Shown here: positions 181 through 7,854 of the stretch, piece after piece
Numbering within the stretch: position 1 is the stretch's first letter
Layout of the letters: each line of letters opens with the position of its first letter
Source of the DNA: Anaerolineaceae bacterium
GTDB lineage: Bacteria; Chloroflexota; Anaerolineae; Anaerolineales; Villigracilaceae
DNA: 64,000 nt
Direction: 5' to 3'
Assembly (NCBI GenBank): GCA_009885945.1
Contig: VFJR01000043.1
Coordinates: 1-64,000, forward strand
Notes under the pieces: generated by a model
What the model was told of the DNA's origin: nothing
Database searches by the model: none
What the model saw: only the letters and a program-made list of their open reading frames with translations
Translations under genes and position numbers: made by a program

Positions 181-2172
181 ATGAGTCACCCTGAACAGCC
201 AGACCATACACAACCGAACACCCAAAAAAATCCACAACCATCTATATTTGAGAGAAAGTCCAGCCACCAGCCAGAACGCACTTTGCGTTCACGCTTTATT
301 GGCAAGGCTCTCCCTACTGCAGATGCGGGCCACGAGACCATAGGAAAAACGGTCGGGCTGGCAGTTTTTGCATCCGATGCGCTTTCATCTAATGCCTATG
401 CCACTCAAGAAATTTTGGCAATTTTGGCAGCAGTTGGCTTGGAAAAAGGATTAGGCTACGTATTCCCGATCTCCATTGCGATTGTTCTACTCCTAATCAT
501 CGTGACAGTCTCCTATGAACAGATTATTCACTCATACCCAGATGGCGGCGGTGCCTATATTGTTGCCCGCGATAATCTTGGCGAACTCTCTGCCTTGATT
601 GCGGCGTCAGCACTGTTAATGGATTACATTCTCACAGTTTCAGTTTCCATATCATCCGGGGTGGCGCAAATTGTTTCAGCCTTCCCAGCCGTATTTGAAT
701 ATCGAGTTTACATTGCTGTAGTAGCAGTCTTCTTTATCATGCTGATCAATCTGCGTGGTGTAAGAGAATCTGGTGCGACAATTGCCATCCCAAGTTTTAT
801 GTTCATTATTGTTATGTTCGTTACGATAGCAGTTGGGTTGGTCAAATATTTGAGCGGCTCACTAGGCGTTGTGATTGACCCGCCTGAACTTGTTGAAGTG
901 CATGTTGGACTGACAGCCGTCACCCCATTCCTGCTTTTACACGCATTTTCAAGCGGCACATCCGCTTTGACAGGCATTGAAGCAATCTCTAATGGGATTA
1001 CCGCCTTTAAGGAACCCCGCAGTAAAAATGCGGCAATTACGCTAATCTGGATGTCGGTTATTCTCTCCAGTCTGTTTCTTGGAATATCATTCCTTTCGGC
1101 TCATATCTCTGCGGTACCCTCCGAATTTGAAACTGTTATTTCGCAATTGGCGCGTACTGTCTTCAACGGTCAAAACTTCTTTTATATCGTCGTAATTCTA
1201 TTTACCACTATCATTTTGCTGCTTGCCGCAAATACAGCCTTTGCTGGTTTTCCGCGCTTGAGCGCAATCATGGCAAAAGACGGCTTTTTGCCTCGTCAAT
1301 TAACGTACCGCGGCAGTCGGCTTGTTTATACACGCGGCATTGTAGCATTAACAATTATCGCATCCCTATTGATAATTCTTTTCCAAGCTAGTGTAACGCG
1401 CCTAATTCCTTTGTACGCCATCGGTGTTTTCCTTTCCTTCACCTTTTCACAGTTTGGCATGGCATTCCGCTGGTGGAGATGCGGACATCTTAAACTGGGT
1501 CAGGAAATCGTTGAGGCAGGTTCAACCTTGCGCTATGATCCTCGCTGGAAGTTAAAAATGGTAATGAATGGTTTTGGGGCAACATGTACCGCGTTGGTTA
1601 TGCTGGTTTTTGCTGTTACAAAATTTGTAGACGGCGCCTACGTTGTACTAATTCTCATCCCTGTTCTTGTTACTATTCTATGGTCGATTCACCGCCACTA
1701 TGTCAAACTTGCAGCAAAACTCTCCTTAGAAAACTTCGGGGCATTGCCGCCCCAAGCATCGCGCCATCGCATCATTATGCCTGTCAGCGGCGTACATCAA
1801 GGCTCACTGGCGGCACTGCGTTATGCACGCTCTCTTTCAGATGATGTCACGGCATTGCACGTTTCCACAGACCCCGAGGAAACAAAACGTGTGCGAGAGA
1901 AATGGAATTTATGGGGTGAAGGTGTGCGTTTAGTGGTCATTGATTCTCAATATCGCCTATTGCTTGAACCTTTGCTTGAATACATTGACGATATTCTAGA
2001 AAAACGCCAGCCGGGTGAAATCATCACCATTGTTGTGCCCGAGTTTGTATCCACTAACAAATTCAGCGGGGCTTTACATACAAACACAGCCAGTATATTA
2101 AGAAACAACCTGCGCTATCAAGAAGGTATTGTAATTACCAACGTACCTTATCATGTAAAAGAGAACATCTAA
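181..2172 (+). CDS. kimA: KimA-like potassium importer (APC superfamily)
   Basis: A 663-residue APC-superfamily transporter resembling Bacillus subtilis KimA (YdaO), a high-affinity K+/H+ symporter. The N-terminal ~55 residues are hydrophilic, residues ~60-510 hold about 12 membrane segments, and ~540-663 form a cytosolic domain that in KimA binds c-di-AMP. The SDALSSNAY motif supplies D66 and Y73, and LTGIE supplies T264 and E267; these match residues reported to line the K+ site of KimA. The ATG at 181 has only a weak GGAA ahead of it. A TATAAT lies at 61-66 without a convincing -35, and no c-di-AMP riboswitch was recognised in bases 1-180. Two RCK genes follow, fitting a K+ homeostasis locus. 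Family membership is fairly sure; another APC permease is the alternative. Confidence 0.85.
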   Translation: MSHPEQPDHTQPNTQKNPQPSIFERKSSHQPERTLRSRFIGKALPTADAGHETIGKTVGLAVFASDALSSNAYATQEILAILAAVGLEKGLGYVFPISIAIVLLLIIVTVSYEQIIHSYPDGGGAYIVARDNLGELSALIAASALLMDYILTVSVSISSGVAQIVSAFPAVFEYRVYIAVVAVFFIMLINLRGVRESGATIAIPSFMFIIVMFVTIAVGLVKYLSGSLGVVIDPPELVEVHVGLTAVTPFLLLHAFSSGTSALTGIEAISNGITAFKEPRSKNAAITLIWMSVILSSLFLGISFLSAHISAVPSEFETVISQLARTVFNGQNFFYIVVILFTTIILLLAANTAFAGFPRLSAIMAKDGFLPRQLTYRGSRLVYTRGIVALTIIASLLIILFQASVTRLIPLYAIGVFLSFTFSQFGMAFRWWRCGHLKLGQEIVEAGSTLRYDPRWKLKMVMNGFGATCTALVMLVFAVTKFVDGAYVVLILIPVLVTILWSIHRHYVKLAAKLSLENFGALPPQASRHRIIMPVSGVHQGSLAALRYARSLSDDVTALHVSTDPEETKRVREKWNLWGEGVRLVVIDSQYRLLLEPLLEYIDDILEKRQPGEIITIVVPEFVSTNKFSGALHTNTASILRNNLRYQEGIVITNVPYHVKENI

Positions 2173-2264
2173 AACCGTCTATCGTCTTACAAGTTTTATA
2201 AACAGTGTTGAGATGGAAAACTTGTGGATGTTTTGATCATTGAAAAAACTGTAAGGAGAATTTT

Positions 2265-2927
2265 ATGAATTTCGTTGTGATCGGATGCGGCCGTGTGGGC
2301 GCAGAACTTGCTTATAAACTTTATAAAAGCGGTCATCAAGTGGTGGTAGTTGATGCCAACCAAAAGTCCTTTGAAAGATTAGCGCCTGATTTTCGCGGAC
2401 GTACTACCGAGGGTCCCGCTCTTTCCAAAGACACCATGGACCGCGCAGGGCTAGATAAGGCAGATGGTGTTGCAGTCGTTACTAACATAGACACATTGAA
2501 TGCCGTCATCGGTCATACCGTACGCACTCAGTATCCAAATGTTAAACAGGTTTTGGTGCGCAACTACGATCCCGCCATGCGAAAAATGCTTGAGACTTTT
2601 AATTTGCAACTGGTCAGTTCCACAGCTTGGGGCGCAGAACGCTTGCAGGAATTGTTAATCGACCCTGACTTCCGTTCGGTCTTTTCGGCAGGAAATGGTG
2701 AAGTAGAGTTATATGAATTTACCATCACACCAGAATGGAACGAGCGCTCAATTTCCGATTTAATATCTGCCTGCAAAGACATCACCATGGTTGCTTTAAC
2801 ACGCGCGGGGCATGCCCACATGCCGGGTGTTATACCAACCTTTCAAGCTGGTGATATTTTGACCGTCAGCGCAACAATGGAGGGCGTAAAGGTTTTACGT
2901 TCGCAATTACATGGGGTGGAGGCTTAA
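2265..2927 (+). CDS. RCK protein, TrkA/KtrA type (first copy)
   Basis: A 220-residue cytosolic protein with an RCK_N Rossmann domain (GCGRVG near residue 8, acidic VVVVD at the end of the second strand) and an RCK_C domain from ~140. Such proteins bind NAD(H) or nucleotides and gate Trk/Ktr K+ channels; RCK_C domains of some Ktr proteins bind c-di-AMP. The start has a good AAGGAG. The stop TAA directly abuts the ATG of the second RCK gene, so the two are probably translated together. No TrkH or KtrB pore subunit is present nearby; the neighbour is the KimA-like importer instead. Confidence 0.85.
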   Translation: MNFVVIGCGRVGAELAYKLYKSGHQVVVVDANQKSFERLAPDFRGRTTEGPALSKDTMDRAGLDKADGVAVVTNIDTLNAVIGHTVRTQYPNVKQVLVRNYDPAMRKMLETFNLQLVSSTAWGAERLQELLIDPDFRSVFSAGNGEVELYEFTITPEWNERSISDLISACKDITMVALTRAGHAHMPGVIPTFQAGDILTVSATMEGVKVLRSQLHGVEA

Positions 2928-3644
2928 ATGATTAGCAAGGATAATAAAAAAATGTTTGTGATGATTGCCGGGGGCGGGCGCACTGGCTCACAGCTGGCTC
3001 AGTCACTGGTGGCGCAGGGATACAATGTGCGTCTGATCGAGAATCGCGCCGAGTTATTACCTCGTTTACATCGCGAACTGGAAACTGAAGTAATTTATCA
3101 GGGAAACCCTGCAGACCCGCAAGTGCTAGAAAACGCCGGCTTGCGTGAAGCTCAGGTAATGGTTGCTTGCACGACAGATGATGCAACCAATTTGGTTTTG
3201 TGCTACATGGCGCGCGAGATATTTAATGTAACCCGCACCATTGCAAGGATCAACAACCCTAATACAGCCTGGTTATACAACAATATATTCCATGTAGATG
3301 AGAAAATTAATCAAGCAGATGTCATGTCACGGCTGATTCAAGAGGAAATGTCGCTGGGCGATATGATGACTTTAATGAAACTGCGCCGCGGGAAATATTC
3401 CTTTGTAGAAGAAAAAGTACCGCCCGGCGCAAAAGCGATTGGCGTTGCGATTAAAGACCTAGGCTTGCCAGAACAATGTGTGATTGCGGGTATTTTCCGT
3501 AACGGGCAGATGACTCTGCCGCGCGGGATTACAACTTTAATGGAAGAGGATGAAGTCCTTGCTATTGCAGACCCGGAAGGCGCGGTTGCACTGGCAAAAC
3601 TACTGGAACCAGCTGAGTACCCTGCCAAACCCAGGAAAAAGTAG
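2928..3644 (+). CDS. RCK protein, TrkA/KtrA type (second copy)
   Basis: A 238-residue protein with RCK_N (GGGRTG near residue 17, acidic LIEN at the end of strand two) and RCK_C domains, ending in a basic tail. It is clearly diverged from the preceding RCK protein, so this is an old pair rather than a fresh duplication. It starts immediately after the upstream stop codon. Role by family: nucleotide-sensing regulator of K+ transport. Whether it works with the first RCK protein as a hetero-octamer, and whether the target is the KimA-like importer or a pore encoded elsewhere, cannot be told from sequence. Confidence 0.85.
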   Translation: MISKDNKKMFVMIAGGGRTGSQLAQSLVAQGYNVRLIENRAELLPRLHRELETEVIYQGNPADPQVLENAGLREAQVMVACTTDDATNLVLCYMAREIFNVTRTIARINNPNTAWLYNNIFHVDEKINQADVMSRLIQEEMSLGDMMTLMKLRRGKYSFVEEKVPPGAKAIGVAIKDLGLPEQCVIAGIFRNGQMTLPRGITTLMEEDEVLAIADPEGAVALAKLLEPAEYPAKPRKK

Positions 3645-3823: not shown

Positions 3824-3994
3824 ATGACGAAGCGTACATATCAACCCAAGATCCGCCGCCGCGTGCGTGTACACGGTTTTCGACAACGTATGTCAACTGC
3901 TGACGGACGCGCCGTGTTAAAGCGCCGCCGCCTTAAGGGTCGCTACAAATTAACCACCAAGTCCAACGAGCACGTAAAACGGACCCGCTGGTAA
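3824..3994 (+). CDS. rpmH: Ribosomal protein bL34
   Basis: A small gene of 56 residues, starting [20 protein letters not shown], which is the L34 signature, with the basic KRRRLKGR region following. L34 is a structural protein of the large ribosomal subunit. The C-terminus carries about ten extra residues (ending HVKRTRW) compared with the usual 44-47-residue L34. AGGAAG lies 9-10 bases before the ATG. It is followed by rnpA, the near-universal rpmH-rnpA order found close to many bacterial replication origins. dnaA and oriC are not in the window; the upstream neighbours are K+ transport genes. Confidence 0.95.
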
Positions 3995-4033
3995 ACGCGC
4001 GTATGCGCGGGATAATTTTGCGCTGAGGCGCCG

Positions 4034-4381
4034 GTGCAACGTAAATTTCGATTGACCCGGTCTGATGACTTCAAGCGGGTGCGGCGTTTGGGTAAGTCCT
4101 ACGCCCACCCGCTTGCTGTCTTGGTAGCTCAACCCGCTGAACATCCATTTACACGTGTAGGGGTTGCGGCAGGCAAAACCACTGGAACAGCAGTACACCG
4201 CAACCGAGCAAAACGACTGCTACGCGAGGCACTGCGGCCACTATTACCAACGCTCGCTTCAAGCTGGGACTTGATCTTGATTGCCCGCCCGGCGCTTGTA
4301 AAGTCTACGCTGACAGAAACCCGCTCTGCGCTAAAAAATTTACTCCGTCGCGCAAAACTAATCCCATTTGATGACAACTAA
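4034..4381 (+). CDS. rnpA: Ribonuclease P protein component
   Basis: A 115-residue basic protein that starts at GTG with GAGG just upstream. FRLTRSDDFKRVRRLGKS is the typical N-terminus of RnpA, and the RNA-binding block NRAKRLLREALR (RNR motif) sits mid-protein. It assists the RNase P RNA in removing 5' leaders from pre-tRNAs. The 3' end overlaps yidD by 14 bp, so translation is likely coupled. The catalytic RNA gene is not in the window. Confidence 0.93.
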   Translation: MQRKFRLTRSDDFKRVRRLGKSYAHPLAVLVAQPAEHPFTRVGVAAGKTTGTAVHRNRAKRLLREALRPLLPTLASSWDLILIARPALVKSTLTETRSALKNLLRRAKLIPFDDN

Positions 4382-4661
4382 TTTCCATATGCACGATTAT
4401 CCAAATGAGCCGCGCCTACGCGATATGCCGCGCACACTGGGGAATTTTGCGCGTATTGTTTTACTCTCGCTCATTCGTTTGTATCAAATGACTCTCTCAC
4501 GCATGATAGCGCAGAACACATGCCGCTTTTACCCATCTTGTTCACACTATGGCTATCAAGCTATTTATAAATATGGCGCGTTCAAAGGTTCGCTCATGGC
4601 AACTTGGCGCGTTTTTCGCTGCAACCCATTTACCCCCGGGGGCTACGACCCTGTTTTGTAA
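4368..4661 (+). CDS. yidD: Membrane protein insertion efficiency factor YidD
   Basis: A 97-residue protein with the YidD signatures CRFYPSCSHYGYQA and RCNPFTPGGYDPV. It is amphipathic and thought to associate with the inner membrane and help YidC-dependent insertion. The start at 4368 overlaps rnpA; an alternative ATG two residues on (the fourth base triplet) would change little. The N-terminal ~25 residues are longer than usual for the family. In most bacteria yidC follows directly; here a lipoprotein gene intervenes. Confidence 0.93.
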   Translation: MMTTNFHMHDYPNEPRLRDMPRTLGNFARIVLLSLIRLYQMTLSRMIAQNTCRFYPSCSHYGYQAIYKYGAFKGSLMATWRVFRCNPFTPGGYDPVL

Positions 4662-4721
4662 GGTTGTATTCAATATAAAAATATACCGCTCACTATAAAT
4701 TTTTGCGGTACAAGGAGTACG

Positions 4722-5813
4722 ATGAAAAAAATTGTTTTGGTTTCACTATTATTGATCAGCGCAATATTGTTGAGTTCCTGCGCGGGGGGCGGGTCTACAC
4801 GCGGCACAGCCGGTTGGACAGGGCTAGCCGCAGATGCTGATTATGTTTACATGGCAGATGGAAACGCAGTTTATGCTATAGACTTAAAAAATGGACAGGA
4901 AGTTTGGCGTTTCCCTGCCGAGTCTTCCACTGCTCAGGTATTTTTTGCTCCGCCCGTTTTAACTGAAGATGGGCAAGTACTGATCGGCAGTGAAGGCACA
5001 GATCATTCCTTTTACAGCCTTGATATTAAAACCGGCAAGGAAAATTGGGCTAAATCCTTTACAGAAGCAAAGGATCGTTGGATCGCTTCTCCACTGGTAC
5101 ATAATGAACTCATCTACGCTCCCAATGCAGATGGATTTTTATATGTGCTCAACATGGAAGGCAAACTAATTGATAAGATCGACTTAGGCGGCGAACTTTG
5201 GACAGCTCCTGTCACTGATGGCACAAGCATTTATGTTACATCTCACGCCCATCAATTACAAGTGGTTAATATCGCAACCAGAAAAATAACACAAACTCTG
5301 GAGTTAGACGGCGCCATTCCCGGCGGATTAACCAATGGAGAAAACGCAATCTATTTCGGCTCGTTCTCAAAAAAACTAACTGTCATTTCAAATGGAAGAC
5401 AAGCCACACTGACAGAAACTCCAAACTGGATTTGGGGTGCGCCCTTATTAGATGGTGATACTTTATATTATGCCGACCTGAACGGAAACGCATATTCCTA
5501 TAACCTAAGCTCTGCACAAAAAAACTGGGAGGTTGCTTTAGGAACTGCGATCATCGCCAGCCCCGTTCTATTTGAGGGCAATCTTATCGTTGCCACAGAA
5601 GGCACAGGAAAAGGCGCATTATCAGGTACTATAATTGCTCTCAACACAAAAGATGGCAGCCAAGTGTGGGAATATGCAACCGAAGGCAAGGTATACTCCA
5701 ATATGATTACAGCCAAAGGATTGATCTTGGTCTCGCCTATGTCTGCCGAATTTCATCTTATTGCTCTGGATATGAATGGTAAAGAAGAATGGACTTTTAC
5801 CCCAGGTCAATAA
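4722..5813 (+). CDS. PQQ-like beta-propeller lipoprotein (BamB-like fold)
   Basis: A 363-residue protein with a lipoprotein signal peptide (hydrophobic residues 4-19, lipobox LSSC, Cys20). The remainder is built of repeats such as VYAIDLKNGQEVWRF, FYSLDIKTGKENW, LYVLNMEGK and IIALNTKDGSQVWEY, the hallmark of PQQ-like beta-propeller blades, about seven to eight in number. The fold is shared with BamB, but a monoderm-like organism would lack a BAM complex, so orthology is not implied. The start has AAGGAG. It sits between yidD and yidC, 15 bp before yidC, suggesting an extracytoplasmic role linked to membrane protein or envelope assembly. No ligand can be assigned. Confidence 0.8.
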   Translation: MKKIVLVSLLLISAILLSSCAGGGSTRGTAGWTGLAADADYVYMADGNAVYAIDLKNGQEVWRFPAESSTAQVFFAPPVLTEDGQVLIGSEGTDHSFYSLDIKTGKENWAKSFTEAKDRWIASPLVHNELIYAPNADGFLYVLNMEGKLIDKIDLGGELWTAPVTDGTSIYVTSHAHQLQVVNIATRKITQTLELDGAIPGGLTNGENAIYFGSFSKKLTVISNGRQATLTETPNWIWGAPLLDGDTLYYADLNGNAYSYNLSSAQKNWEVALGTAIIASPVLFEGNLIVATEGTGKGALSGTIIALNTKDGSQVWEYATEGKVYSNMITAKGLILVSPMSAEFHLIALDMNGKEEWTFTPGQ

Positions 5814-5828
5814 AAAGGAAAGATATTA

Positions 5829-6719
5829 ATGAATAACTCCAAATCAAATCAGGCTGTACCTCAGGTATCAGCATCAGGCTCTGTAAAAACAATACTCGTT
5901 ATCACTATTCTTGCTCTCATTGCATGGCAATGGAATGGCTTTATTGCTATCTTTGTTAATGCTTTGGTATTAATCTATGGTCTCGTCGGCAACAACTTTG
6001 GGCTGGCGATCATCATCTTCACCATTCTTATTCGCGTGGTTACCTGGCCTCTCAACGCCCAGCAAATGAAAGGCGCGCAAGCCATGCAAGAATTGCAAAG
6101 CGACAAAGAATGGCAAGCGATTCAAAAGAAGTATGCAAAAGATCGTGAAAAGCTAGCCGCAGAACAAATGCGTATTTATAGCGAGCGCGGCATCAGCCCT
6201 TTTGCATCCTGCTTACCCACCCTAATTCAATTTCCAATTTTGATCGCCTTATACAATAGCGTTTCACGCGCGTTAGCAAACAACCCCGTCAGCATGTTGG
6301 ATTTTTCGCGAAAACTTTATTCCTTTGTAGATACATCTGCCTTGGTGCCGCTCAACAGCCACTTTTTATGGATGAACTTGGGCAAGCCAGAAGGCATTCC
6401 CCTGCCATTTGATGTTTCCTTCCTGCCAAATGGATTTCCTCTTTTGGCTTTGGTCGTAGCAATAACAACCTATGTTCAAGCCAAACTTACCATGCCGGCC
6501 AGCGCCAATCCAAACGATCAAAGCGCTGCAATCTCTGCTCAAATGGCAATTATGATGCCAATTATGCTGGGTTGGTTTGCGCTTACCTTTCCATCTGGTG
6601 TAGCAGTATACTTTGTCACTAGCAACTTGCTTGGCATTGCACAATATGCCATACAAGGCAAAGCCAACTGGAGCAATTTGTTGCCCGGCGGCAAAAATAA
6701 TTCTATAACAAAAAAATAG
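5829..6719 (+). CDS. yidC: Membrane protein insertase YidC/Oxa1
   Basis: A 296-residue insertase of the short, Gram-positive/Oxa1 type without the large periplasmic domain. It has hydrophobic segments at ~20-55, a core beginning LAIIIFTILIRVVTWPLNAQQ (the positive residue in the first core helix is the conserved groove arginine), a charged cytosolic hairpin (~80-115), then ISPFASCLPTLIQFPILIALY and two to three further segments, ending in a basic tail. It inserts and folds membrane proteins alone or with SecYEG. AAAGG precedes the ATG. jag follows 10 bp later, the conserved yidC-jag pair. Confidence 0.93.
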   Translation: MNNSKSNQAVPQVSASGSVKTILVITILALIAWQWNGFIAIFVNALVLIYGLVGNNFGLAIIIFTILIRVVTWPLNAQQMKGAQAMQELQSDKEWQAIQKKYAKDREKLAAEQMRIYSERGISPFASCLPTLIQFPILIALYNSVSRALANNPVSMLDFSRKLYSFVDTSALVPLNSHFLWMNLGKPEGIPLPFDVSFLPNGFPLLALVVAITTYVQAKLTMPASANPNDQSAAISAQMAIMMPIMLGWFALTFPSGVAVYFVTSNLLGIAQYAIQGKANWSNLLPGGKNNSITKK

Positions 6720-6729
6720 GGAGTTACTT

Positions 6730-7581
6730 ATGAATGAGCGAACCACACTCGAAGTTATCGCTCCAACTGTTGAAGAAGCCCTCATGCAAGGGCTTGCACA
6801 ACTTGGGCTAACCGCCGCAGATGTCTCTGTTGAAGTTTTAGATTCTGGCAGTAAAGGTTTGTTTGGATTAGGCGGAAGACAAGTACGCGTCCTGCTAAGC
6901 GTGAACCCTCCGCCCGGCTCATTGAAAGCTAAAACAGCACCCGCCTCCAAACCAGAACGGAAAGCGGCTCCTGCTCAAAAGGCAGAATCAAAGCCCAAGG
7001 CGTCCACTCCTGCTTCTGCTACAGTAGAGAAGCGCGATTCATCAAGACCAGCTCCCAAAGAAAACAAGCCTGCTCCAACTGCAGCCCCTGTTTCGCTCAA
7101 ACCCACAGTACATGATGAACTGATCGACAAAACAGAAGAGCTCATCTCCAAACTAATTCATCTAATGGGCATGCAAGCTCAAATCTCTGCCCACTACGCC
7201 GAGGACGACCGCGCAGACCGTCGTTCCATCGAAGTGGATATACGCGGCAATGACCTAAGCTCCCTCGTTGGTAAAAACGCTGAAACATTAAATTCACTTC
7301 AACATGTTGCCTCGCTTATGGTCGGCAAAGAAAGCGGTCAATGGGTCCAGCTCACGATTGATATTGAAGGCTTTCGCGCCCGCCGTGAAAAACAATTACA
7401 ACAATTAGCAAATCGTATGGCTGACCAAGTGATACGAACCAACCGCAAAGCTACCCTCGAACCCATGCCATCTGAAGACCGCCGCATTATACACATTGCC
7501 CTGCGCGGGCACCCAGCTGTTTCCACCGAAAGCGCTGGTGACGAGCCGCATCGCAAAGTTGTCATTCTGCCCAAAAAATAA
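6730..7581 (+). CDS. jag: RNA-binding protein KhpB/Jag (EloR)
   Basis: A 283-residue protein with an N-terminal Jag_N domain (residues 1-58, KGLFGLGGR near 43), an Ala/Pro/Lys-rich linker (~60-130), a KH domain (~135-205, with LVGKNAETLNSLQH) and a C-terminal R3H domain (~210-275). KhpB with KhpA binds RNA and in firmicutes influences cell elongation and division. The long low-complexity linker is the only unusual point. It ends the operon: a strong intrinsic terminator follows within 10 bp. Confidence 0.9.
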   Translation: MNERTTLEVIAPTVEEALMQGLAQLGLTAADVSVEVLDSGSKGLFGLGGRQVRVLLSVNPPPGSLKAKTAPASKPERKAAPAQKAESKPKASTPASATVEKRDSSRPAPKENKPAPTAAPVSLKPTVHDELIDKTEELISKLIHLMGMQAQISAHYAEDDRADRRSIEVDIRGNDLSSLVGKNAETLNSLQHVASLMVGKESGQWVQLTIDIEGFRARREKQLQQLANRMADQVIRTNRKATLEPMPSEDRRIIHIALRGHPAVSTESAGDEPHRKVVILPKK

Positions 7582-7589
7582 TAATAAAA

Positions 7590-7620
7590 AAACTCCGCAT
7601 AAATAACGCGGAGTTTTTTT
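7590..7620 (+). terminator. Intrinsic terminator after jag
   Basis: A 9-bp perfect stem (7590-7598 with 7608-7616, core ACTCCGC/GCGGAGT) followed by a run of seven or more T closes the rpmH-to-jag operon. Its stem resembles the terminators at 34651 and 40719. Confidence 0.9.
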
Positions 7621-7657
7621 ATTAAACAATGGTAGAATTATTTTACAAATTAATAAC

Positions 7658-7795
7658 GATCAACAAGCGGCGAAGTTGGTGAAAACCCAACACTGTCCCG
7701 CAACTGTAAATTAGCCATTAGTACTTTAGCAATTAGCCCAACCGCTAAAAGCTAACAACCTAAAAGCTAACAAGTCAGGTCGCCCGCTCTTGATC
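7658..7795 (+). ncRNA. Cobalamin riboswitch
   Basis: The aptamer carries the B12-box-type elements GGTGAAAACCC (7678-7688), CCCGCAACTGTAA (7697-7709) and AGTCAGGTCGCCC (7773-7785). The flanks 7658-7672 and 7781-7795 pair to close the P1 stem. It lies upstream of btuF, btuC, btuD and cobO. Family knowledge: AdoCbl binding normally shuts off such operons. The variable arm (7710-7770) is rich in short AGCTAA-like repeats. Confidence 0.92.
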
Positions 7796-7854
7796 AATTC
7801 ACCATACTCTCGTGGAAAGGAGGTGGAGGATGCTAACTTAGCGACCCTCTATCT

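Follow-up and report, generated by a model that had tools for sequence, protein, structure and literature searches.

A KimA-type potassium importer linked to paired RCK proteins in Chloroflexota and Actinomycetota: a candidate RCK-controlled KimA system

Introduction

RCK rings are known to gate channels or channel-like importers, namely Trk, Ktr, and MthK, as well as CPA-type exporters; in the importers, TrkH and KtrB are dimers beneath an eight-domain RCK ring. A 64,000-nucleotide stretch of DNA from an Anaerolineaceae bacterium (assembly GCA_009885945.1, contig VFJR01000043.1, positions 1 to 64,000; hereafter, the window) raises the question of what two RCK proteins do beside a K+ importer of a different kind. 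At positions 181-3644, it encodes a KimA-type importer followed by two distinct RCK proteins, RCK1 and RCK2. KimA of Bacillus subtilis is not known to have an RCK partner. From the letters of the DNA, the original prediction had proposed that this KimA might be regulated by RCK subunits in the absence of a Trk/Ktr pore. Here, we report that the genes are as proposed, describe their folds, and show that their linkage is conserved in two phyla and that TrkH is missing. Taken as a whole, the KimA-RCK1-RCK2 set is best explained as an RCK-controlled KimA system, a reading that we consider probable, and its distribution suggests that such systems are widespread and so far undescribed.

Results and Discussion

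The three genes are plus-strand open reading frames (ORFs), lying exactly where the original prediction had placed them. The first product matches B. subtilis KimA (PDB 6s3k) over residues 36-660, transmembrane (TM) and cytosolic domains included (phmmer, E value of 2.6e-135). KimA is a dimer whose K+ ligands are D36, Y43, T230, and Y377 (PMC10284832). Together with E233, these residues align to D66, Y73, T264, a tyrosine, and E267 of the window protein, which bears out all four positions named from the DNA (D66, Y73, T264, and E267), and equivalents of the four ligands are present in the window KimA and in nearly all aligned RCK-linked homologues. Homology and the K+ site thus identify the permease as a KimA, predicted to import K+ together with protons. 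It resembles B. subtilis KimA (YdaO), a KUP family K+/H+ symporter, in its full-length homology, K+ site, cytosolic domain, and residues R337, P479, V506, and H579, but differs in the changed N580, Q581, and S582 and in being paired with RCK proteins.

Both small proteins that follow are RCK proteins. Each carries an RCK_N (TrkA_N) domain with a GxGxxG nucleotide motif, which is retained in 469 of 479 RCK sequences (234/239 RCK1 and 235/240 RCK2). RCK2 also contains a Pfam TrkA_C domain, whereas the C-terminal half of RCK1 has no Pfam RCK_C score but is modeled as RCK_C: its AlphaFold model (predicted local distance difference test of 86.5) displays complete RCK_N and RCK_C folds, with 3l4b_C (TM1088B) as the best structural match. 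The nearest solved sequences are TM1088A (3l4b_A) for RCK1 and TrkA (4j9u), then TM1088B (3l4b_C), for RCK2, which resembles half of TrkA or TM1088B. This arrangement recalls the two-subunit TrkA gating ring of Thermotoga maritima (PDB 3l4b, PMC4380455), in which two distinct adjacent genes, TM1088A and TM1088B, likewise encode one RCK subunit each. However, TM1088A (143 amino acids [aa]) lacks the C-terminal RCK_C domain that RCK1 possesses, and the partner of the TM1088 ring is TrkH (TM1089), while the neighbor of the window pair is KimA. By analogy, a TM1088-like octameric ring of RCK1 and RCK2 is plausible. A joint RCK1-RCK2 model, read through the TAA stop, was poor (predicted template modeling score of 0.56, from an alignment only three sequences deep).

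TrkH/KtrB (PF02386) had no match in the window genome (3.43 Mb, 209 contigs, 95.7% complete), while the same search was positive in 11 of 14 control genomes. Since the pore was searched for and not found, the KimA-RCK set is neither a Trk nor a Ktr system. We extended the comparison to 61 genomes of the family and order of the window (the Anaerolineales-order set; RCK2 cutoff of E < 1e-50, 8-kb neighborhoods), many of the genomes compared here and below being drafts. TrkH occurs in 7 of the 61 and RCK2 in 42, with both in just 3 and adjacent in none, so that TrkH is absent from 39 of the 42 RCK2-bearing genomes. Like TrkH-TrkA and KtrB-KtrA, the window locus places RCK proteins with nucleotide-binding motifs alongside a dimeric K+ importer; unlike them, it lacks TrkH/KtrB and draws its partner from the unrelated family of APC-fold secondary transporters. 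The further RCK proteins inspected in the window genome, a CASTOR/POLLUX-type channel and a 358-aa protein whose hydrophobic N-terminal segments make it a probable channel, each have RCK domains of their own.

The RCK pair frequently lies beside KimA. Among 48 RCK2 loci in the 42 genomes, 28 lie by KimA, 17 by a KimA-related permease, 3 by neither, and none by TrkH, whereas we roughly estimate from genome size that KimA would fall within 8 kb of an RCK2 locus by chance in about 1% of cases. Of the 30 best KimA loci, 23, including that of the window, show the order KimA-RCK1-RCK2 with close spacing. In the phylum as a whole, 96 of 151 Chloroflexota genomes encode RCK2-like proteins. At 20 additional loci, the KimA link was seen only in the family of the window and in one remoter genome (G230); several distant RCK pairs are preceded by TrkH or a P-type ATPase, and beside many no transporter was recognized.

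The linkage recurs in Actinomycetota, where the first case that we found was Nonomuraea gerenzanensis, with an RCK1-RCK2 pair beside a divergent KimA. Across 80 named actinomycete RCK2 loci (Nonomuraea, Actinomadura, Kribbella, Streptomyces, Kitasatospora, and Nocardioides among them), RCK1 was alongside in 80, KimA lay within 5 kb in 67, and TrkH in none; some of the 13 KimA-less loci are cut by contig ends, and two of them (G070 and G072) belong to genomes in which KimA has no match anywhere. We then divided the RCK2s of 149 evenly drawn Actinomycetota genomes into those near the Nonomuraea RCK2 (clade A, E-value cut of 1e-55) and more distant ones (clade B). KimA was found within 8 kb at 39 of 49 clade-A loci (48 genomes) and at 0 of 68 clade-B loci, while TrkH showed the reverse pattern (0/49 versus 36/68). 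At the genome level, KimA is present in 46 of the 48 clade-A genomes (60/149 overall), and TrkH in 7 of the 48 (84/149 overall, 77/101 in the remainder); the Fisher p values for these associations, 2e-23 and 6e-13, are uncorrected for shared ancestry. When 89 RCK2 sequences were placed in a tree, the partner type tracked the clade (7 changes for 8 labels versus 51 in shuffles). The KimA-linked RCKs may have originated once or twice, and a single origin was not rejected (approximately unbiased test, p = 0.44). The triplet recurs far above chance and is a conserved module in Anaerolineae and Actinomycetota. The outcomes that the original prediction had named as speaking against it did not appear: the RCK genes do not co-occur with TrkH, nor is the KimA link confined to one genome. 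A review of Streptomyces venezuelae, which finds no TrkH or KtrB, discusses the KimA-like Vnz_27465 separately from the RCK_C protein Vnz_27460 (PMC10117811); their consecutive locus tags indicate that the two genes are adjacent.

Two further locus types were encountered in Anaerolineae. In type 2 (L074-L076, L078, and L080-L090), a histidine kinase and a response regulator, a KimA-related permease, and a P-type cation ATPase precede RCK1-RCK2; this permease, of about 610 aa, has no Pfam or NCBIfam match and aligns to 6s3k with an E value of 6.5e-15. In type 3 (L077:3651-5933 and L079:3673-5925), RCK1-RCK2 directly follow a chimeric permease of 751-761 aa, the TM part of which is type-2-like while its C-terminal domain is 53-54% identical to the window KimA; one copy adjoins a KdpA-like gene. 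In addition, a P-type cation ATPase stands immediately before RCK1-RCK2, with no recognized adjoining permease, at L102 (a Streptomyces fungicidicus plasmid), L334, L337, and L352. The P-type cation ATPase is a possible further RCK partner. Plasmid-borne KimA copies without RCK partners were also observed, on a plasmid of Leptolinea sp. HRD-7 (L094) and on Rhodococcus jostii pRHL1 (L098).

One genome of the actinobacterial set, in which TrkH has no match, is mycobacterial judging by its 49 PPE genes. Its locus reads suhB-like ... RCK2 and RCK1 (reverse), KimA (forward), TRAM/methyltransferase, a Na/H exchanger with TrkA_C, dxs, and an HRDC nuclease; the exchanger (L313:12274-13803), with its own TrkA_C, lies two genes past KimA and ahead of dxs. 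This position matches that of Rv2690c-ceoB-ceoC on the H37Rv map. Like the window, the Mycobacterium tuberculosis CeoBC "Trk" system comprises two TrkA-type proteins with no described pore, and it adjoins Rv2690c; in actinomycetes, the KimA-like gene diverges from the RCK pair, whereas KimA is codirectional in Anaerolineae. In K+-free medium, deletion of ceoBC lowers intrabacterial K+ (PMC12136442). Transposon sequencing gives ceoB and its neighbor Rv2690c a common phenotype (PMC12216072), and a single late clinical isolate carried mutations in both rv2690c and ceoC, at about 25% (PMC11878324). Loss of the mycobacterial "Trk" system attenuates M. tuberculosis in mice (PMC6375644). In a literature search that left subscription journals and preprints largely outside its coverage, we found no description of a link between KimA and RCK subunits, and none of Rv2690c as a homologue of KimA or as the subunit through which CeoBC would transport K+.

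In the mechanism that we propose, RCK1 and RCK2 would form a cytosolic RCK assembly from two distinct subunits, as the two-subunit TrkA of T. maritima does, and their GxGxxG motifs would hold an adenine nucleotide, either ATP/ADP or NAD(H). The pair would set the activity of KimA, which would replace the TrkH/KtrB pore usually gated by such rings. Activation is most likely, rather than inhibition, given the precedent of TrkA and the drop in cell K+ when the mycobacterial counterpart CeoBC is lost; the RCK pair would then be an activator needed for full uptake, coupling K+ import to the energy state. The stoichiometry is compatible with this proposal, KimA being dimeric like TrkH and KtrB. Cyclic di-AMP (c-di-AMP), if it acts at all, would do so separately, on the cytosolic domain of KimA itself.

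A functional partnership between KimA and the RCK pair appears likely to us. Gene adjacency, however, speaks for functional association and is not proof of contact, and we regard the chances of a direct KimA-RCK complex as evenly balanced. Several points weigh against RCK control of KimA. The domain-swapped cytosolic domains of KimA sit on the very face where an RCK ring would dock. In the Anaerolineales-order set, 37 of 70 KimA matches have no RCK pair within 8 kb, some of them at contig edges, and B. subtilis KimA works without RCKs, so that KimA needs no RCKs in general; since about half of the KimAs in this set lack them, RCK control would be a trait of a KimA subset. Conversely, neither KimA nor a KimA-related permease adjoins 3 RCK2 loci of the order or most of the RCK pairs of distant Chloroflexota. 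Actinomycete KimA is transcribed divergently from the RCK pair and Anaerolineae KimA codirectionally; cotranscription is therefore not universal. Moreover, the partnership is read from genomic linkage and homology, interaction, binding, and transport all being predictions, and the suggestion that Rv2690c may be KimA-like draws on its position and on a mycobacterial-type relative. We give an even chance to the full proposal that a heteromeric RCK assembly directly controls KimA in both Chloroflexota and Actinomycetota and that in mycobacteria, too, this assembly would be the real "Trk" system, with Rv2690c as the transporter and CeoB and CeoC as its nucleotide-sensing RCK subunits.

The strongest competing explanation, which we consider unlikely, is that the genes are coregulated neighbors without contact, both serving K+ homeostasis, and that the RCKs act on another transporter, such as a P-type ATPase, a CPA antiporter, or a channel. 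The RCK pair does follow a P-type cation ATPase in the type-2 loci and on the Streptomyces plasmid, where, as at three Chloroflexota loci, ATPase and RCK pair stand without a recognized permease; the mycobacterial-type locus also offers a Na/H exchanger that itself carries a TrkA_C domain, and many KimAs stand alone. Yet KimA is the membrane protein that adjoins the pair in type-1 loci, it is kept in nearly all clade-A genomes, and type-3 loci retain a KimA-type cytosolic domain beside the RCKs despite the exchange of the TM domain. In addition, the other RCK proteins inspected in the window genome bring RCK domains of their own.

Far less probable is that the RCK pair serves specifically as a receptor for c-di-AMP and closes KimA alongside the c-di-AMP site of KimA itself. 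A diadenylate cyclase domain is encoded in the window genome, and the RCK_C domains of KtrA, KhtT, and CpeA bind c-di-AMP (PMC10117811, PMC10284832). However, the full form of the RCK_C signature for this ligand, (I/L)(I/L)x2DxRx5N(I/L)(I/L), was not found in RCK1 or RCK2; a loose DxR...N match in RCK1 (DFRSVFSAGN) lies upstream of the RCK_C domain and misses the flanking residues, and even the loose pattern occurs in only 3 of 239 RCK1 and 1 of 240 RCK2 sequences. Moreover, Vnz_27460, which stands beside KimA in S. venezuelae, reportedly fails to bind c-di-AMP (PMC10117811, citing unpublished data). The original expectation that both families can respond to c-di-AMP thus fails for the RCK proteins and may hold in part for KimA, which keeps four of seven contacts (R337, P479, V506, and H579), the others being replaced (N580T, Q581N, and S582T). 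Q581 is retained in 12 of 31 RCK-linked and 25 of 33 unlinked Chloroflexota KimA copies, a difference that is not significant once relatedness is taken into account, and we rejected an erosion of c-di-AMP residues in RCK-linked KimA.

The remaining alternative, in which KimA is nearby by accident and the RCK pair belongs to an ordinary Trk system with a TrkH located at another site or overlooked because the genome is incomplete, is very improbable: a single gene could be missing from this assembly and TrkH-adjoining RCK pairs do exist in the same phyla, but the rarity of TrkH in RCK2-bearing relatives, its depletion in clade-A genomes, and the separate clade formed by TrkH-linked RCKs already contradict it.

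The original interpretation is therefore partly supported, the gating of KimA by RCK proteins being a prediction from sequence. Parallels for RCK-controlled KimA outside Trk and Ktr include KhtTU and CpeAB, in which a secondary active K+ transporter is likewise under a soluble RCK_C protein; there, however, the transporter is a CPA-family exporter and KhtT and CpeA bind c-di-AMP, whereas the window encodes a KUP-type importer. If our proposal is correct, an RCK-governed KUP/APC importer would bring transporters of an unrelated fold under the RCK principle, and the mycobacterial "Trk" system, long described as two TrkA proteins only, would gain a transporting subunit.

Some actinomycetotal KimAs of 750-840 aa (L303, L304, L310, and L312), encoded beside RCK pairs, carry a tandem second KimA cytosolic (c-di-AMP-binding) domain at the C terminus. 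A KimA-RCK gene fusion was rejected, as the four long proteins inspected end in this domain and not in an RCK domain.

The features of the locus are collected in Table 1.

Table 1. Genes and putative ribosome binding sites of the KimA-RCK locus in the window
Feature	Position	Strand	Basis
KimA-type K+/H+ symporter, APC/KUP-fold TM domain and KimA cytosolic domain	181..2172	+	663 aa; phmmer to 6s3k, AA_permease_2, K+-site residues
AAGGAG, likely RCK1 ribosome binding site	2253..2258	+	Direct sequence reading
RCK1: RCK_N (Rossmann, GCGRVG) and divergent RCK_C	2265..2927	+	220 aa; TrkA_N 6.6e-20; 3l4b_A 1.5e-20; AlphaFold model
GGAGG, likely RCK2 ribosome binding site, within RCK1 3' end	2918..2922	+	Direct sequence reading
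RCK2: RCK_N (GGGRTG) and RCK_C (TrkA_C)	2928..3644	+	238 aa; TrkA_N 3.4e-25, TrkA_C 3.9e-14; 4j9u 9.1e-41, 3l4b_C 2.2e-20

The window starts at the end of its contig (C192). KimA and RCK1 are separated by 92 nucleotides, and RCK2 starts at the first base past the RCK1 TAA. No Rfam riboswitch, of the ydaO/c-di-AMP type or any other, was matched in the 180 bases upstream of KimA or in 20 relatives, and we discarded a ydaO/c-di-AMP riboswitch 5' of KimA. According to the ORF reading, an origin-type rpmH-rnpA-yidD-yidC-jag cluster lies directly downstream of the triplet (3824-7581), in which a beta-propeller-like lipoprotein gene (4722-5813) interrupts yidD/yidC. Farther on, a cobalamin riboswitch (7613-7805; 48 bits, above the gathering score) stands just 5' of genes for a BtuF-like binding protein and a FecCD-type permease.

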